Below, piece after piece: positions 22,287 to 28,233 of a stretch of 64,000 bases of DNA (within the stretch, counting starts at the first letter, position 1; each line of letters starts with the position of its first letter). The position numbers and the translations under genes were made by a program. A model generated the notes under the pieces. The model did not search any database. It was not told the DNA's origin and saw only the letters and a list, made by a program, of their open reading frames with translations. This DNA comes from a virus: the IMG/VR virus record IMGVR_UViG_3300018080_005856, positions 62,001-126,000 of that record; one strand, given 5' to 3'.

Positions 22287-23087
22287 ATGAGTGTAGAAGG
22301 TTCAAACAGCGTAGTATCTCAGTTTACACAAACATATACTACGTTTAGTGGTGTCGATATAACGGCCCTGTTTGATGATATGACAGTAATGACTGTTCAG
22401 GGTATTGCAGTGTCAATTACCCGAGAAAAGGTCCCTGTCTACGTTTTCGGAAGAGCAAGGCCAGTCTCCATATCGCGTGGAAAGAGAGGTATAGCTGGAA
22501 CTTTACAGTTCGTTCTGTTTGACAGAGACGCGCTATACCATCTCATGCAAAATCCAGATCACTTCTATTACGCACATGCGGATGAAGTAAACTGGCTCAC
22601 AAATGCGGCAAATATGGCCAATTACCCAGGTCAACAGGGTACTGCTCAGATGGAAGACGGAACACAGCGTCCAGCTGGAGTTGCCAGGTCCCAAACAGCA
22701 ATACCCGACTACATGGATCAAATATGGCCATTTGACGTAACTCTGGTTGCCCAGAATGAGTATGGGCAAGGAGCATGGTCAGCCATAATAGGTCTGGAGA
22801 TCATAAACGAAGGTGGTGGTATCAGTATGGATGATCTCACCAATGAAGAGCAAGCGACATATATCGCGTTGCATAGAGTCCCATGGACAACCCTCTCACC
22901 TCTAGATAGAGATGAAGGTAATACCGACTACTGGGTATCTCAAGTACAGCTTTCAACAGATGGCAGGCTTGGTATATTTGGTGGCCGTCCTGGTGAGGAT
23001 TCTACCTTCGTTCCTGCTGGATATAACGAGGATGCGTATACTTATACAGCTAATCCTACTGAAGACGTTGTATATCCCAGCACCTAA
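22287..23087 (+). CDS. Tail tube protein (main)
   Basis: A 266-residue protein directly after the sheath, with a near-perfect AAGGAGGT site. The segment TFSGVDITALFDDM, VSITREKVPVYVFGRARPVS and SRGKRGIAGTLQFVLFDRDA is the signature of a tube-like virion protein family of large phages. Later conserved points are ADEV, FDVTLVAQNEYG and EIINEGGGISMDDL. The same pattern recurs in the 464-residue gene at 23462. It forms the inner tube around which the sheath contracts. A hairpin and a strong terminator follow. Confidence 0.8.
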   Translation: MSVEGSNSVVSQFTQTYTTFSGVDITALFDDMTVMTVQGIAVSITREKVPVYVFGRARPVSISRGKRGIAGTLQFVLFDRDALYHLMQNPDHFYYAHADEVNWLTNAANMANYPGQQGTAQMEDGTQRPAGVARSQTAIPDYMDQIWPFDVTLVAQNEYGQGAWSAIIGLEIINEGGGISMDDLTNEEQATYIALHRVPWTTLSPLDRDEGNTDYWVSQVQLSTDGRLGIFGGRPGEDSTFVPAGYNEDAYTYTANPTEDVVYPST

Positions 23088-23288: not shown

Positions 23289-23462
23289 ATGAGAAAGAGG
23301 GGAAACTACGTCAAATGCCCACTATGTGGGGGAAAGGGACAGGTGCAAGACAAGGATACTAAGGAACTGCTACCGTGTCCCAAATGTGACAGAGGCTTTA
23401 TCCATGTGTCTGATGTTGGTTCAACAATGATATTTGATGAGGATGATGGTTATATAGACTAA
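23289..23462 (+). CDS. 57-residue zinc-ribbon protein, DnaJ-like cysteine motif
   Basis: CPLCGGKG followed by LPCPKCDRGF is a DnaJ-type zinc module (CxxCxGxG plus a second CxxC). The frame opens at 23271, but that ATG lies upstream of the predicted transcript start; ATG 23289 follows GAGAGG by ten bases and is preferred. Acidic C-terminus. The stop overlaps the start of the tube paralogue (TAATG), so the two are coupled, and the zinc protein may assist folding or assembly of tail proteins. The same kind of motif is repeated inside the 1,966-residue tail protein. Confidence 0.7.
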   Translation: MRKRGNYVKCPLCGGKGQVQDKDTKELLPCPKCDRGFIHVSDVGSTMIFDEDDGYID

Positions 23463-24856
23463 TGGCTACTACAGATATTGACTCTCGTATAGCTAATATC
23501 GATCCAGATAAGGTAGATGATTATATATCATCACCGATGTATCCTACAGTAATGGACTACCCTGAGTCTATATCCGTTGGGGATAAGCTGTTTCCGTTGC
23601 TGTATATATACTATTTTGGGAACCCAACAGATTATTCAAAGATATCAAACACCAATCTATTCACCAAAGGTATGGAAGACTATATAGAGTTGATATCTGC
23701 GGTAGGTGGTTATTCTGAGTCTAAAAGTGCCCAGATGATAACAACATGGGTCAAAAGCACACAGGCGCTGAAGAAGTTCCGTCTTATGTTTGACTCAGCA
23801 TGCAAGAATAACCCGCAATTCGTATGGCTTATGGCAAACGCAGCATCTGCAGCAATGAAGAAGTACTCTAGTAGATTAAGTTACGATGATGAGAGGCCTC
23901 TACCTGGGTCAACATATTACAGACAACATTTGCCCAACGGGAAAACAAAGTTCTCATCTGTCCCTGCTATAAATGGAAATACTGGTACTGATATAGGAAC
24001 CTCCATGGAAGCTCTCAGAATACTATTTGAGAACGGACTTCTTACCTACGACTATGACCTGGGGATAAGGCCAATCAACATATTCACTGGAGAAATGTCA
24101 GAGGAGAAAGAGGAACTAAACAAGGAAAATGTTACTGCAAGATACTTAGGCCTCCCGACAAGAGGAATATTCACTGCCAGTAAAACCAAGAAGGGGTCCT
24201 CTATGTATCATACCTTTTCCGGTATAGATATAAATGCCCTAGCGTCTCTAGACACCAATGTTGCTGACCTGAACCAGCTGCTCTCATTATCCTGGTCCAT
24301 ACATAGGGGAACAACCTCTCTGAGAACTGTTGGGAAGGCTTCTCCCGGAGGTAGAGTTAAAGGGGGCAGAACTGTTGCTGGCACTATGGTATTCGCGCTA
24401 ACTGACCATCACCCACTACGGGATATTATCCCTGATACCTGGGAGGGGAGAAAGACTCAAGTGCTTAATGATCCAGACAACTGGAAGCCCCTTGTAATGG
24501 CGGACGAGATTCCAGGGTTTGATCTAGTATTAACCCTTACCAACGAGTACGGGTTTGCTGCTATCACTACGCTGTATGGTGTTCAAATAGCTGACGAGGG
24601 TGGGGTCTTCGGAATGGATAACCTTATGACTGAAATGGTACTACAGTATACAGCTGTAGCTATGGATCCTATAATGGAAGTATCTCTGGATGAGAATGGG
24701 GTCATAGATCCTTTTGGTATCCTACAGGGGGGTTATTCCAAAATGTGGAGAAAGCGGGAACTCATATCAGCCGGCGCTGGATTCTCAGACTTGGAAGCAG
24801 CATATGAGAGGTATTATGATACAGTACTATTCACTCCGAAAGTAAGAAGTAAATAA
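23462..24856 (+). CDS. Tail tube paralogue with extra N-terminal domain
   Basis: A 464-residue protein. Residues about 245-425 repeat the tube signature: YHTFSGIDINAL, LSWSIHRGTTSLRTVGKASP, GRTVAGTMVFALTDHHPL, ADEIPGFDLVLTLTNEYGFA and DEGGVFGMDNL, aligning point by point with the 266-residue tube protein. The first 240 residues are helical and unrecognised. Such fusions commonly initiate or cap the tube at the baseplate. Coupled to the zinc-ribbon gene upstream; the rightward transcript then meets the leftward lipoprotein genes. Confidence 0.75.
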   Translation: MATTDIDSRIANIDPDKVDDYISSPMYPTVMDYPESISVGDKLFPLLYIYYFGNPTDYSKISNTNLFTKGMEDYIELISAVGGYSESKSAQMITTWVKSTQALKKFRLMFDSACKNNPQFVWLMANAASAAMKKYSSRLSYDDERPLPGSTYYRQHLPNGKTKFSSVPAINGNTGTDIGTSMEALRILFENGLLTYDYDLGIRPINIFTGEMSEEKEELNKENVTARYLGLPTRGIFTASKTKKGSSMYHTFSGIDINALASLDTNVADLNQLLSLSWSIHRGTTSLRTVGKASPGGRVKGGRTVAGTMVFALTDHHPLRDIIPDTWEGRKTQVLNDPDNWKPLVMADEIPGFDLVLTLTNEYGFAAITTLYGVQIADEGGVFGMDNLMTEMVLQYTAVAMDPIMEVSLDENGVIDPFGILQGGYSKMWRKRELISAGAGFSDLEAAYERYYDTVLFTPKVRSK

Positions 24857-24861
24857 CTATA

Positions 24862-24972
24862 ATGGCCACAATCAAAGATGCTACTGGCCCTAGGGCCGCC
24901 AGCAAGGCAAAGCCTATTAACGCACCTATTACATGTCCAAAAGCTGATAACATTAGGGGTACTCCCAGTTAA
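24862..24972 (+). CDS. Possible 36-residue peptide (doubtful)
   Basis: An ATG five bases after the tube-paralogue stop opens 36 codons (MATIKDATGPRAASKAKPIN and on). It lacks a clear ribosome binding site and its end overlaps the convergent lipoprotein gene by 20 bases. No terminator was seen here; the 96 bases between the two convergent genes are otherwise featureless. Confidence 0.2.
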   Translation: MATIKDATGPRAASKAKPINAPITCPKADNIRGTPS

Positions 24973-25957
24973 TACCATCAGTAGTGTATCTGTTGTATAA
25001 AACGTAGTAGTGCTCCTGGTCGTCTGAATTCCACTCATAATAACCACCAACGATGTTCCATATTTTATCCTTGTATACTATTGCACTATAAGCCGGAAAC
25101 GAGAAATTGTATGGGCAACCCGTACCGTAAAGTGAATCCATGGATACTCTGGACCAGTTCTCTAAATCGTCTATAGTGGTATTCCATATATCATATAACT
25201 TTTGAGGAACTGTACCATATGCTTCTCTTCCTCCCATTACCCAGAACTTATTGTTATAAACAAGAAACGCATGGCCTGTTCTATGCGGGACCAGCGTGTC
25301 TAGAGTTATGGCTTCCCACGTAACAGCATTATCTGATACAAACAGACCACTGCCTGAAGATATATATATTCTACCGTCATATACGACACATCTAGGATGT
25401 CCAGATTCTAGGTTAGAATTATAACATCGCCAGGTTTCTCCATCGGTAGATGAACAAGCTGTACTGGCAGCTTCTAAGGAAGTGTGCATTCCACCTATGA
25501 CCCACATCGCACCATTGAAAACTATGAGAGAATGATATGCTCTTTTCCCGAAGGGGGCATGTTCTGTTACACAAGTCCAGTCTTTGCCATTAGAGGATGA
25601 CCATACGTCGTCTTCATATTCGTAAGCTGGTGTAGGACCATCTGATAATTCTCCACCAGTGATCCATAGCTTCCCATTGTACTCTACTATTCCATCCATC
25701 ACCCTGGGAGGAAATTCTGGTTTGTCCTTTATAAGAGTCCAGTCTTTGCCATTCTTCGAAGAATATATTCCACCATAGTCTACTACTCCGCCGTACTCTG
25801 TGTGGTAACCACAGTGGACAAATATCTTGTCCTTGAATATTGTGACTGTAGGCCAGCTCAATGCCGGAAGTTCGTCGTATATTACTTCCTCTTCCAATCC
25901 ACATCCTGGCAACAGAATGATAATGATGGCTATAATCTGAAATATCACTGGTTTCAT
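24953..25957 (-). CDS. Predicted surface lipoprotein, six-bladed kelch-like propeller
   Basis: The ATG at 25957 is chosen because GAGGTG lies seven bases upstream and because it gives a textbook lipoprotein signal: hydrophobic VIFQIIAIIIILLPGC with the lipid-modified cysteine at 19. The 334-residue product then repeats a kelch-like unit six times, each with an aromatic/Gly-Gly core: KDKIFVHCG, NGKLWITGG, NGAMWVIGG, DGRIYISSG, NNKFWVMGG, KDKIWNIVGG, interspersed with DVWSSSNGKDWT-type strands. Six blades would close one beta-propeller. It would be displayed on a cell membrane, not built into the virion, unless signal processing is bypassed. Possible roles are superinfection exclusion, surface adhesion or glycan binding. 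It lies ten bases downstream of a second kelch lipoprotein. Confidence 0.8.
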   Translation of the reverse strand: MKPVIFQIIAIIIILLPGCGLEEEVIYDELPALSWPTVTIFKDKIFVHCGYHTEYGGVVDYGGIYSSKNGKDWTLIKDKPEFPPRVMDGIVEYNGKLWITGGELSDGPTPAYEYEDDVWSSSNGKDWTCVTEHAPFGKRAYHSLIVFNGAMWVIGGMHTSLEAASTACSSTDGETWRCYNSNLESGHPRCVVYDGRIYISSGSGLFVSDNAVTWEAITLDTLVPHRTGHAFLVYNNKFWVMGGREAYGTVPQKLYDIWNTTIDDLENWSRVSMDSLYGTGCPYNFSFPAYSAIVYKDKIWNIVGGYYEWNSDDQEHYYVLYNRYTTDGINWEYP

Positions 25958-25967
25958 AACTTTCACC

Positions 25968-27941
25968 TCACCTATACCAAATGTCCCATGCCCAGCGGTC
26001 AGCTCCTTCACCTGTCAGCATAATAAGCTTATCTTTAAAAGATTCCATAGTATGCCCGCGTCTGGGTATAACTTCGCTATTAAAGCTTACAGGATTCCAT
26101 GTTATACCGTCAGATGACGACCAGGTGTCGTCACGGCGGCCAAAGGTGTAAGGGCTTTCATCATCAAAATGTACCCTTAAACATACAGCAGTACAGTAGG
26201 CGTCATGTGTATATTCAATAGTGCCGTAACTTACCAGTGTGACCCCAACTTCCAAATCTGTAATTTCCGCCCAGGTCCAGGGCACCCCGGTGTCCGGGTT
26301 GTCTGTCCAGGTGTATGTTCTGCCTTCATAATTGCCTGTTGTAGATATTATTGGATCCAGATCTGTAGATTCAAATATAGAACCGTTTGTCATTATAGCT
26401 GCCCTCGCATTTGCAGAGGAACCGCTCCTTCTCACAGAAACAAACACCTCTATGCTTGCTATATAGCCGCCCCAGGCCAGAGGATTGTCCTCTACCTCGT
26501 AGAGGTCCCTGTAAGTGCCTCCGGATGGAGGACCGCCTTCAGTAGATACCCTGGTTATATCACCATCTATTTCTCCCGGATCATTTACACTGCTGTAATG
26601 CGGAGAAGATGGGGGATACGGCATGCTGGTTTCTGAACCATCGCCAGTCACCATCAGTACACCTACTGCCGGGATCCCATACTCTCCGCCGTTGATCCAT
26701 AACTTCCCGTCATGCACTGCGGAAGCAAACATTGCTCGTGTTCCAAAACCTATACCAGCTGGAGGTACTTTGTCCCATACAAGGCCGTCAGACGAATGCC
26801 ACACTTCTGAACTATAGGTATAGCCAGTTATAAGACCATACGAAGACGGTGAAGAACTGTATGAGCATGACATGCCGCCGATAAGCCACATCTCATTATT
26901 GAATACCCGCAACTCAAATAGGGTCCTGCTGGTGAATATGTCCCTGACGTGAGCCCAGTCTGCTGCATTGAATGGATAAGAAGGCCCATGGTCAACTATG
27001 CACGTGTAATGAGAATTATAGTGTGTGACAATATCGCCTACAGAGTAGGACATATCGTACCGCCATCTTGGCGGAGTTACAAGCTCCCAGTCTACTCCGT
27101 TTGTAGACCGCCATACATCATTCTCAAATCCCATTCCGATACAGCCGCCTATAACCCACATGTAACCATCAAAAGAGACAGCTTTATGGCCGGCCCTACC
27201 GCAGAACCCGGGACTGTTCGTTGCTCTGTGCCAGTCTGTGCCATCATAAGAGTACCATACGTCATCGTTGTATGTAGTATCCAGAGACCGGCCTCCTATG
27301 TTCCATATTCTGCCATCATATACGCATGCTGCACTTGCATGGTTGGATATGTTTTCAAAGACAGGATGTTCTGTAGCCAGATACCAGTTGACAGCGTCAT
27401 CTGTATACCATATATCATTAATGAAGTTACCCGAATCGAAGGTGGCTGTATTTACATAGTTCTGGTACCCATTAAAACCACCTATAACCCATAACTTGTC
27501 ATCAAATATAACTGACTGGTACAGACTTCTGGATCTGAACCATGACATTGAGGAAAGAGAAGCCCAGTTATCACCAACTTTTAGAGTATGGCCGGCAGCC
27601 ATTTGACTGTAATCACTGTACCCCTTACTATCACAGTATGCCTGAACCTGGTAGTAATAAAAGTATCCGTCTTTTACGTCAGTGTCAGTAAAGGACAGCT
27701 CTGTAGTTTCACCGATGTAATCTACAACTTCACAAGCTGCCCCGCTCCTGTAAATATAGTAGAGTTCAGCATACTCTACAGCATCCCAGGTTATTACTAC
27801 TCTATCGGCATAATCACCGCAGGTAGCGTGTATGTTTTCCGGTGCCAGATAAGGGGGCTCCTCTTGCTCTATGTCATCATGGCATAGACATCCTGAAAGG
27901 AGAATTAGTAGGAATTGACATAATATTGTTGCAGTCTTCAC
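25968..27941 (-). CDS. Predicted surface lipoprotein: FN3, kelch-like propeller, inserted CBM-like and beta-sandwich domains
   Basis: A GTG start at 27941, six bases after GGAGG, is preferred over the ATG at 27962, which has no such site. It yields the signal MKTATILCQFLLILLSGC with lipid-modified Cys18. Domains in the 657 residues: fibronectin type III (about 28-115, ending YYYYQVQAYCDSKGY), three kelch-like blades (DDKLWVIGG, DGRIWNIGG, DGYMWVIGG), an inserted CBM5/12-like motif at about 290-330 (YSVGDIVTHYNSHYTCIVDH then DWAHV), two more blades (NNEMWLIGG, DGKLWINGG), an inserted beta-sandwich-like region, and a sixth blade (KDKLIMLTG). Together with its neighbour it forms a leftward two-gene unit. 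Surface exposure is well supported; function is not known. Confidence 0.8.
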   Translation of the reverse strand: MKTATILCQFLLILLSGCLCHDDIEQEEPPYLAPENIHATCGDYADRVVITWDAVEYAELYYIYRSGAACEVVDYIGETTELSFTDTDVKDGYFYYYQVQAYCDSKGYSDYSQMAAGHTLKVGDNWASLSSMSWFRSRSLYQSVIFDDKLWVIGGFNGYQNYVNTATFDSGNFINDIWYTDDAVNWYLATEHPVFENISNHASAACVYDGRIWNIGGRSLDTTYNDDVWYSYDGTDWHRATNSPGFCGRAGHKAVSFDGYMWVIGGCIGMGFENDVWRSTNGVDWELVTPPRWRYDMSYSVGDIVTHYNSHYTCIVDHGPSYPFNAADWAHVRDIFTSRTLFELRVFNNEMWLIGGMSCSYSSSPSSYGLITGYTYSSEVWHSSDGLVWDKVPPAGIGFGTRAMFASAVHDGKLWINGGEYGIPAVGVLMVTGDGSETSMPYPPSSPHYSSVNDPGEIDGDITRVSTEGGPPSGGTYRDLYEVEDNPLAWGGYIASIEVFVSVRRSGSSANARAAIMTNGSIFESTDLDPIISTTGNYEGRTYTWTDNPDTGVPWTWAEITDLEVGVTLVSYGTIEYTHDAYCTAVCLRVHFDDESPYTFGRRDDTWSSSDGITWNPVSFNSEVIPRRGHTMESFKDKLIMLTGEGADRWAWDIWYR

Positions 27942-28080
27942 AATGTACCTCCAAGGTAGCATGATCTAGATTTACTACCGGTGGGTTCCAGAAGTGAGCT
28001 ATGTGAGATACATATCTTAATGAAGCCGTCTCCAGGGACCCATCGCGTTGTTCCCGCACGGACTCGTACTTATTAGTCAT
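27877..28080 (-). CDS. Possible small protein upstream of the lipoprotein genes (doubtful)
   Basis: ATG 28080 opens 67 codons (MTNKYESVREQRDGSLETAS and on) just downstream of the promoter candidate at 28110-28137. No ribosome binding site is evident, and the end overlaps the lipoprotein signal sequence by 65 bases. It could be a leader or may simply be untranslated 5' sequence. Confidence 0.25.
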   Translation of the reverse strand: MTNKYESVREQRDGSLETASLRYVSHIAHFWNPPVVNLDHATLEVHCEDCNNIMSIPTNSPFRMSMP

Positions 28081-28086
28081 GAGTAG

Positions 28087-28110
28087 TTGTTCACTATGAT
28101 TTGTGAACAA
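28087..28110. repeat. Perfect 8-bp inverted repeat at the predicted lipoprotein transcript start
   Basis: TTGTTCAC (28087-28094) and GTGAACAA (28103-28110) with an 8-base centre. It abuts the -10 box of the leftward promoter and covers the likely start site, a typical operator position. The recA promoter carries a similar 7-8-7 dyad of related sequence. Confidence 0.5.
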
Positions 28111-28137
28111 ATATATCCAGTCAGTATCTGACTGTAA
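28110..28137 (-). promoter_or_regulatory. Candidate promoter for the kelch lipoprotein genes, inverted repeat in the spacer
   Basis: On the minus strand TTACAG (28137-28132), 16 bases, TATATT (28115-28110). The inverted repeat CAGTCAG-TAT-CTGACTG (28118-28134 in plus coordinates) fills the spacer. A long 5' leader of about 160 bases would precede the lipoprotein start. Confidence 0.45.
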
Positions 28138-28154
28138 TGCCTATCTCACATATG

Positions 28155-28170
28155 TAGGAAAGCTTTCCTA
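28155..28170. repeat. Perfect 16-bp palindrome
   Basis: TAGGAAAGCTTTCCTA reads the same on both strands. It lies between the end of the RNase H operon and the lipoprotein promoter. It may be a protein-binding site upstream of that promoter. No gene covers 28138-28233. Confidence 0.5.
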
Positions 28171-28203
28171 GTTGGAACTATATTTCGCGTTTCCGAGTGT
28201 TAG

Positions 28204-28222
28204 ACCAGAAGCATCTTCTGGT
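28204..28222 (-). terminator. Hairpin downstream of the RNase H gene, possible operon end
   Basis: ACCAGAAG and CTTCTGGT pair perfectly around a 3-base loop, 12 bases past the RNase H stop on the leftward transcript. There is no T-run after it, so termination efficiency is uncertain; it may be a processing or stabilising hairpin. Confidence 0.4.
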
Positions 28223-28233
28223 TAGTGCCTTTC

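Follow-up and report, generated by a model that had tools for sequence, protein, structure and literature searches.

Exclusion lipoproteins are already known from phages, and so are kelch proteins. Llp of the lytic phage T5 is a superinfection-exclusion lipoprotein of the outer membrane, and its structure indicates how a lipoprotein of a phage can block a receptor from within the periplasm (PMC9586334); thus, surface exposure is not required for exclusion. Ltp, from Streptococcus thermophilus phage TP-J34, is a phage surface lipoprotein with a role in superinfection exclusion (PMC3952083). A kelch protein, CBB_552, was found in the virion of phage CBB (PMC5259590), while BamI, a surface lipoprotein of the Bacteroidota outer-membrane assembly complex, combines an Ig-like domain with a six-bladed propeller (PMC12578637). 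Large kelch-headed phage lipoproteins were found neither in the papers searched nor among 50,697 deposited phages.

The two adjacent genes described here, k1 and k2, share features with each of these systems. As with T5 Llp and similar exclusion lipoproteins of small size, their products are predicted lipoproteins of the infected-cell envelope in a probably lytic phage. Llp, though, is a small protein that lacks a propeller, whereas k1 and k2 encode products of 657 and 334 aa that bear kelch heads, with further modules inserted in k1. As in Ltp, a lipid anchor is predicted to carry a repeat-built binding head; in Ltp, however, the spacer is rich in serine and the repeat domain is of another kind, and the protein belongs to the lysogeny module of a temperate phage, whereas the spacers here are acidic (by inspection) or Ig-like, so that neither the small size nor the serine-rich spacer typical of Llp or Ltp was found. 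The resemblance to BamI extends to a lipoprotein with an N-terminal Ig-like domain (k1), a six-bladed propeller and acidic residues following the cysteine, but both proteins fall far under the family cut-off (BamI_Bacteroidota, NF053688, 370 bits; k2 scores 28.4 bits and k1 has no match), with no sign of a Bam complex or of a Bacteroidota host. Chromosomal proteins of Flavobacteriaceae (L007-L010) have a lipoprotein-like signal and six DVWSSxDGxxW units, and in L007 also an N-terminal beta-sandwich; unlike k1 and k2 they are cellular, are ~25-35% identical, and lack a CBM-like or phage beta-sandwich insert. With kelch virion proteins (CBB_552 and, by fold, virion proteins of Noxifer and PhiPA3) the pair shares a phage-encoded kelch propeller, but the kelch proteins of CBB lack both a signal peptide and a lipobox. 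The working principle of k1 and k2 is of a known kind, and we do not assign the two proteins to the Llp, Ltp or BamI families.

The phage genome and the k1-k2 pair

The window, the whole stretch of 64,000 nucleotides analysed, corresponds to bases 62001-126000 of a 150,487-base record, which comes from a large contractile-tailed bacteriophage (myophage). Its plus strand carries genes for terminase, portal, major head and contractile sheath, together with two tail-tube-like genes that are related to each other; after them comes a leftward block that includes the genes for RecA and RNase H as well as k1 and k2. PHROG names the family matched by the tube-like genes 'major head protein'; we call them 'tube' from their position after the sheath gene. 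These tandem paralogues (22287-23087 and 23462-24856, the second with an additional N-terminal domain of ~240 aa) are both retained in three relatives (L011, L012 and L143). The nearest deposited phages are very distant by terminase (28% identity to Moorella phage MTATph1), and a terminase query of viral contigs gave no match. Since no tyrosine integrase (Phage_integrase, PF00589) was found in the 150-kb record, which is possibly incomplete, while all 14 control genomes had one, the phage is probably lytic; the search covered integrases of the tyrosine type.

Shine-Dalgarno (SD) sites stand ahead of 63-73% of the longer genes compared with 6-16% at random ATGs, a percentage on which the slight preference for SD in start choice during gene calling has some bearing. 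Such strong use argues against a Bacteroidota host. Genes resembling those for a sugar-nucleotide transferase, an epimerase/dehydratase and a glycosyltransferase lie at the left end of the record (L017:1179-5170, record bases), and the relative L012 has a GDP-mannose-dehydratase-like gene and a glycosyltransferase gene near recA. Judging from these genes, the host is probably polysaccharide-coated and Gram-negative; an attempt at host assignment found no informative tRNA in the record and only metagenomic relatives. The record also holds a putative tail-fibre gene built of BspA/DUF285 leucine-rich repeats (L017:12978-14534, minus strand).

The two adjacent leftward genes that had been predicted are both present, each with a ribosome-binding site. 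Their features, in the direction of transcription and in window coordinates, are as follows.

27942..28233, minus strand: hairpin-rich intergenic leader upstream of k1 (fold z-score -3.4)
25968..27941, minus strand: k1, kelch lipoprotein gene (predicted), 657 aa; GTG start, SD TTGGAGGT upstream
27891..27941, minus strand: k1 predicted lipoprotein signal peptide MKTATILCQFLLILLSG, cleavage before Cys18 (sequence; rule scan with shuffle control)
27588..27887, minus strand: k1 FN3/Ig-like domain; an acidic tether (LCHDDIEQEE) precedes it (weak matches)
27069..27569, minus strand: k1 kelch units 1-3 (Pfam; confident part of the k1 model)
26940..27068, minus strand: k1 CBM5/12-like insert at the boundary of kelch units 3 and 4 (E 0.0016, below the curated cut-off)
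26664..26939, minus strand: k1 kelch unit 4 with the initial strands of unit 5 (Pfam; model)
26151..26663, minus strand: k1 beta-sandwich insert within kelch unit 5 (PHROG 6368; DSS3phi2 orf37)
25971..26150, minus strand: k1 remaining part of kelch unit 5, then unit 6 (DTWSSSDGITW motif in the sequence)
24953..25957, minus strand: k2, kelch lipoprotein gene (predicted), 334 aa; ATG start
25904..25957, minus strand: k2 predicted lipoprotein signal peptide MKPVIFQIIAIIIILLPG, cleavage before Cys19 (rule scan with shuffle control)
24956..25873, minus strand: k2 six-bladed kelch propeller (Pfam; AlphaFold2 pTM 0.80; Foldseek)

An alternative in-frame ATG for k1 at 27962 has no SD, and the signal would be retained if it were used. 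The k2 start lies ~10 bases beyond the k1 stop codon, with the k2 SD immediately downstream of that stop. Located directly downstream of the tail-tube genes, the pair is on the strand opposite the virion cassette and runs in the same direction as the recA block. Recent foreign origin could not be read from base composition, as k2 is typical (42.0% GC) and the excess of k1 is too weak (46.3%, slightly above the 95th percentile of 45.8% for genes of this genome).

Lipobox cysteines had been proposed at residues 18 and 19, and our scan, a regular expression combined with a hydropathy rule rather than SignalP or LipoP, confirmed them (k1, LLSG/C18; k2, LLPG/C19). Both N-termini have the charged n-region, hydrophobic h-region and lipobox cysteine of SPII signals, such that lipidation is predicted; they are textbook lipoprotein signals save for an unusual proline at -2 in k2. 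The rule was loosened once because a stricter first version missed k1, and in its loosened form it still missed signals recognised by eye in the viral protein L157 (LCAC) and in Flavobacteriaceae (e.g. NSC, IAC). Among the 129 genes called in the record, only k1, k2 and one 90-aa open reading frame were positive by this rule. Shuffled N-termini pass at 8e-5 per gene (0.01 expected per genome), and at that rate the signals of k1 and k2 are not due to chance. Neither protein has the virion-type N-terminus, free of a signal peptide, of phage kelch virion proteins. The 90-aa product (L018:11794-12066, minus strand; MRKLCVILLATMWLG/CSCDHDYG) gives this phage a third candidate lipoprotein, which is small and nearer in size to the known exclusion lipoproteins than k1 or k2.

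By eye, each protein shows six kelch units, as expected, and Pfam kelch matches exceed the curated cut-offs in both (k1: Kelch_1, 53.9 bits against 20.1, and Kelch_4, 45.6 against 21.6; k2: PF24681, 52.3 bits against 50, and Kelch_1, 30.2 against 20.1). For k2, the six-bladed propeller was borne out by an AlphaFold2 model that resembles solved six-bladed kelch domains such as that of KLHL12 (Foldseek, TM up to 0.76 on target), whereas k1 was modelled only in part, poorly outside the blades and without capturing its inserts. The two genes had been described as differing in module order; in k1 a kelch head of the k2 type follows an FN3/Ig-like domain and is split by two inserts, and k2 is better described as lacking all three.

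Of the additional modules foreseen in k1, the beta-sandwich (~170 residues) found matches: 30 residues align with PHROG 6368 (E 2.5e-5), and orf37 of roseophage DSS3phi2 is similar (E 7e-4), all three sharing the motif NPxTGxPWTxAEI. DSS3phi2 orf37 has no signal peptide and is encoded near rIIA/rIIB. The FN3-like region had no Pfam match and matched only weakly the Fn3 structure 3mpc (E 0.05) and phage major tail protein regions (PHROG, E 1e-4). The CBM5/12-like stretch of ~43 residues had no PHROG match and is suggestive only, its Pfam match being under the cut-off, and the proposal of glycan binding is thus not supported. Two enzymatic identities were set aside: the sugar mutarotase NanM/YjhT (N-acetylneuraminate epimerase; k2 13.8 bits against a cut-off of 416, k1 no match) and galactose oxidase, to which nothing but the generic Kelch_4 motif points. 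Duplication, also part of the original prediction, finds no support as a recent tandem event in pairwise scores, in which k2 ranks 51st of 76 for k1 and k1 26th of 74 for k2; the tree neither supported nor rejected a single k1-k2 clade (p-AU 0.81).

Kelch proteins in other viruses and on chromosomes

Direct searches of viral contigs with k1 or k2 found no relatives. Pattern and alignment scans of a limited IMG/VR sample for the DVWSSxDGxxW type yielded at least 87 non-redundant viral kelch proteins. Among the matches listed, 53 of 87 share a virion-like N-terminus, three are lipoproteins (L026 and L105 by rule, L157 by eye), and a few have other export signals. Kelch proteins are therefore not rare in phages, but the lipoprotein form is uncommon, at those three of 87 among the matches listed. 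The three viral lipoproteins measure 320-380 aa. The L105 gene lies between genes for ParA and an XRE-type repressor on a contig with a portal gene, that of L026 adjoins an antirepressor gene, and that of L157 is near tail-fibre and spanin genes; a signal-anchored kelch protein, L059, is encoded beside an O-antigen acetylase (PHROG class 'moron'), with a baseplate gene nearby. The four contigs are independent, and L105 and L059 represent exported kelch proteins at phage accessory positions. A tblastn search of the 50,697 deposited phages with the k1, L105 and L059 proteins recovered no kelch lipoprotein, its only match being a weak one to an unexported Pawinskivirus protein. One further viral contig encodes a protein of 1531 aa in which profile matches mark ~25 kelch units, enough for several consecutive propellers (L153:5422-10014, plus strand).

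Lipoproteins of the same build occur on chromosomes of marine Flavobacteriaceae (L007-L010), L007 having a lipobox-like signal, a beta-sandwich domain and six kelch units, and a Nitrospinota genome encodes the same build with a plain secretion signal.

The corresponding slot in sister phages

Alignments of the tube proteins gathered seven related loci. In L143, the sheath, tubes, 97- and 139-aa proteins and RecA are kept in order (identities to the record: sheath 58%, tubes 69/46%, RecA 52%), and the interval corresponding to k1 and k2 encodes a very basic protein of 1274 aa with a Sec signal (L143:13122-16946, minus strand) that matched no Pfam or PHROG family. In L012, where gene order is rearranged, the interval holds a 203-aa protein with a Sec signal; more distant relatives have no such exported-protein genes there. 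No kelch protein occurs in any of the relatives' records, and in L143 and L012 other exported proteins take the place of the pair. Because sisters keep the flanking genes while carrying a different exported protein, the k1-k2 locus looks like a variable exported-protein slot.

The leader upstream of k1 matched no Rfam family. A likewise hairpin-rich non-coding leader precedes the exported gene in the slot of L143 (L143:16947-17760); both contain short perfect stems with 3-base loops (e.g. CAGTCAG-ATA-CTGACTG and TTCCAAG-ATA-CTTGGAA), and the two have no sequence in common. It is conceivable, if rather doubtful, that one group of large myophages shares a locus reserved for the display of sizeable exported proteins on infected cells. 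Such a locus would lie between the tail-tube and recA blocks, preceded by a hairpin-rich leader, and its contents would be swappable, with the kelch pair and the 1274-aa basic protein as two of its cassettes.

Possible functions of k1 and k2

We tentatively favour the view that k1 and k2 are envelope-anchored binding proteins, most likely serving superinfection exclusion or receptor masking. The genes would form a two-gene accessory unit in a phage with a contractile tail; their products would be exported by Sec, lipidated at Cys18 and Cys19, and retained in the infected cell's envelope, the outer membrane being the likeliest site since residue +2 is not Asp in either. Each kelch propeller would act as a binding head that holds its ligand on the propeller face, k1 adding an Ig-like stalk and two inserted modules. 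Binding of a surface component of the infected cell, whether receptor protein or glycan, may then prevent later phages from adsorbing or injecting, or keep progeny off debris. The lipobox scan and the kelch fold support what had been proposed of exported phage lipoproteins with propeller binding heads and a surface or envelope role; of the two settings proposed for their display, a lytically infected cell fits better, and a lysogenic one is doubtful given the lack of a tyrosine integrase in the 150-kb, possibly incomplete, record.

An envelope location is favoured by lipobox signals above chance and by the absence of the tail-fibre-type N-terminus of virion-type phage kelch proteins. The latter bear on the distinctly unlikely alternative that k1 and k2 are fibre or whisker heads of the virion with an incidental hydrophobic N-terminus: most phage kelch proteins among the matches listed are virion-like, CBB_552 is present in the CBB virion (PMC5259590), and the pair directly follows the tail-tube genes, but the CBB and Pawinskivirus kelch proteins lack signal peptides, whereas k1 and k2 both have a full lipoprotein signal of low chance probability and lie opposite the structural genes. 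Their strand and the other exported proteins in the sisters' slot favour exclusion at the envelope, as do the independent kelch lipoproteins of viral contigs, the O-antigen acetylase beside L059, the sugar-nucleotide and glycosyltransferase genes of the record and L012, and the precedents of Llp (PMC9586334) and Ltp (PMC3952083). The exclusion reading is weakened by size, as known exclusion lipoproteins such as Llp are described as small.

Because lipoproteins of the same build, the closest cellular relatives, are found on chromosomes of marine Flavobacteriaceae (L007, L008-L010), an ordinary host-type function is possible, and with the sub-threshold CBM5/12-like segment of k1 it gives some ground to a somewhat unlikely alternative: lipoproteins acquired from bacteria would alter adhesion or the binding of nutrients or glycans by the infected cell, with no role in exclusion. 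A phage that is probably lytic, by the lack of an integrase match, would gain little from long-term host traits, however, and the k1 beta-sandwich was found here only in phage families. Mimicry of BamI, acting on outer-membrane biogenesis, is very unlikely; the architecture is the same (PMC12578637) and among NCBIfam models k2 matches BamI best (E 1e-6), but the kelch proteins of unrelated phages match equally weakly and the strong SD use speaks against a Bacteroidota host. A part in lysis or particle release, e.g. outer-membrane disruption, seems extremely improbable: exported kelch genes do lie near lysozyme-like genes (L059, L214) or a spanin gene (L157), but k1 and k2 have no spanin-like length or coiled coil, and no lysis gene was recognised adjoining them.

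To our knowledge, lytic phages have rarely been thought to use large proteins to remodel the surface of a dying cell. Several unrelated viral contigs with kelch-headed lipoproteins, together with a slot in which exported proteins appear to be swapped, would offer a testable entry to phage competition at the level of the envelope, lying outside the few small exclusion lipoproteins known.
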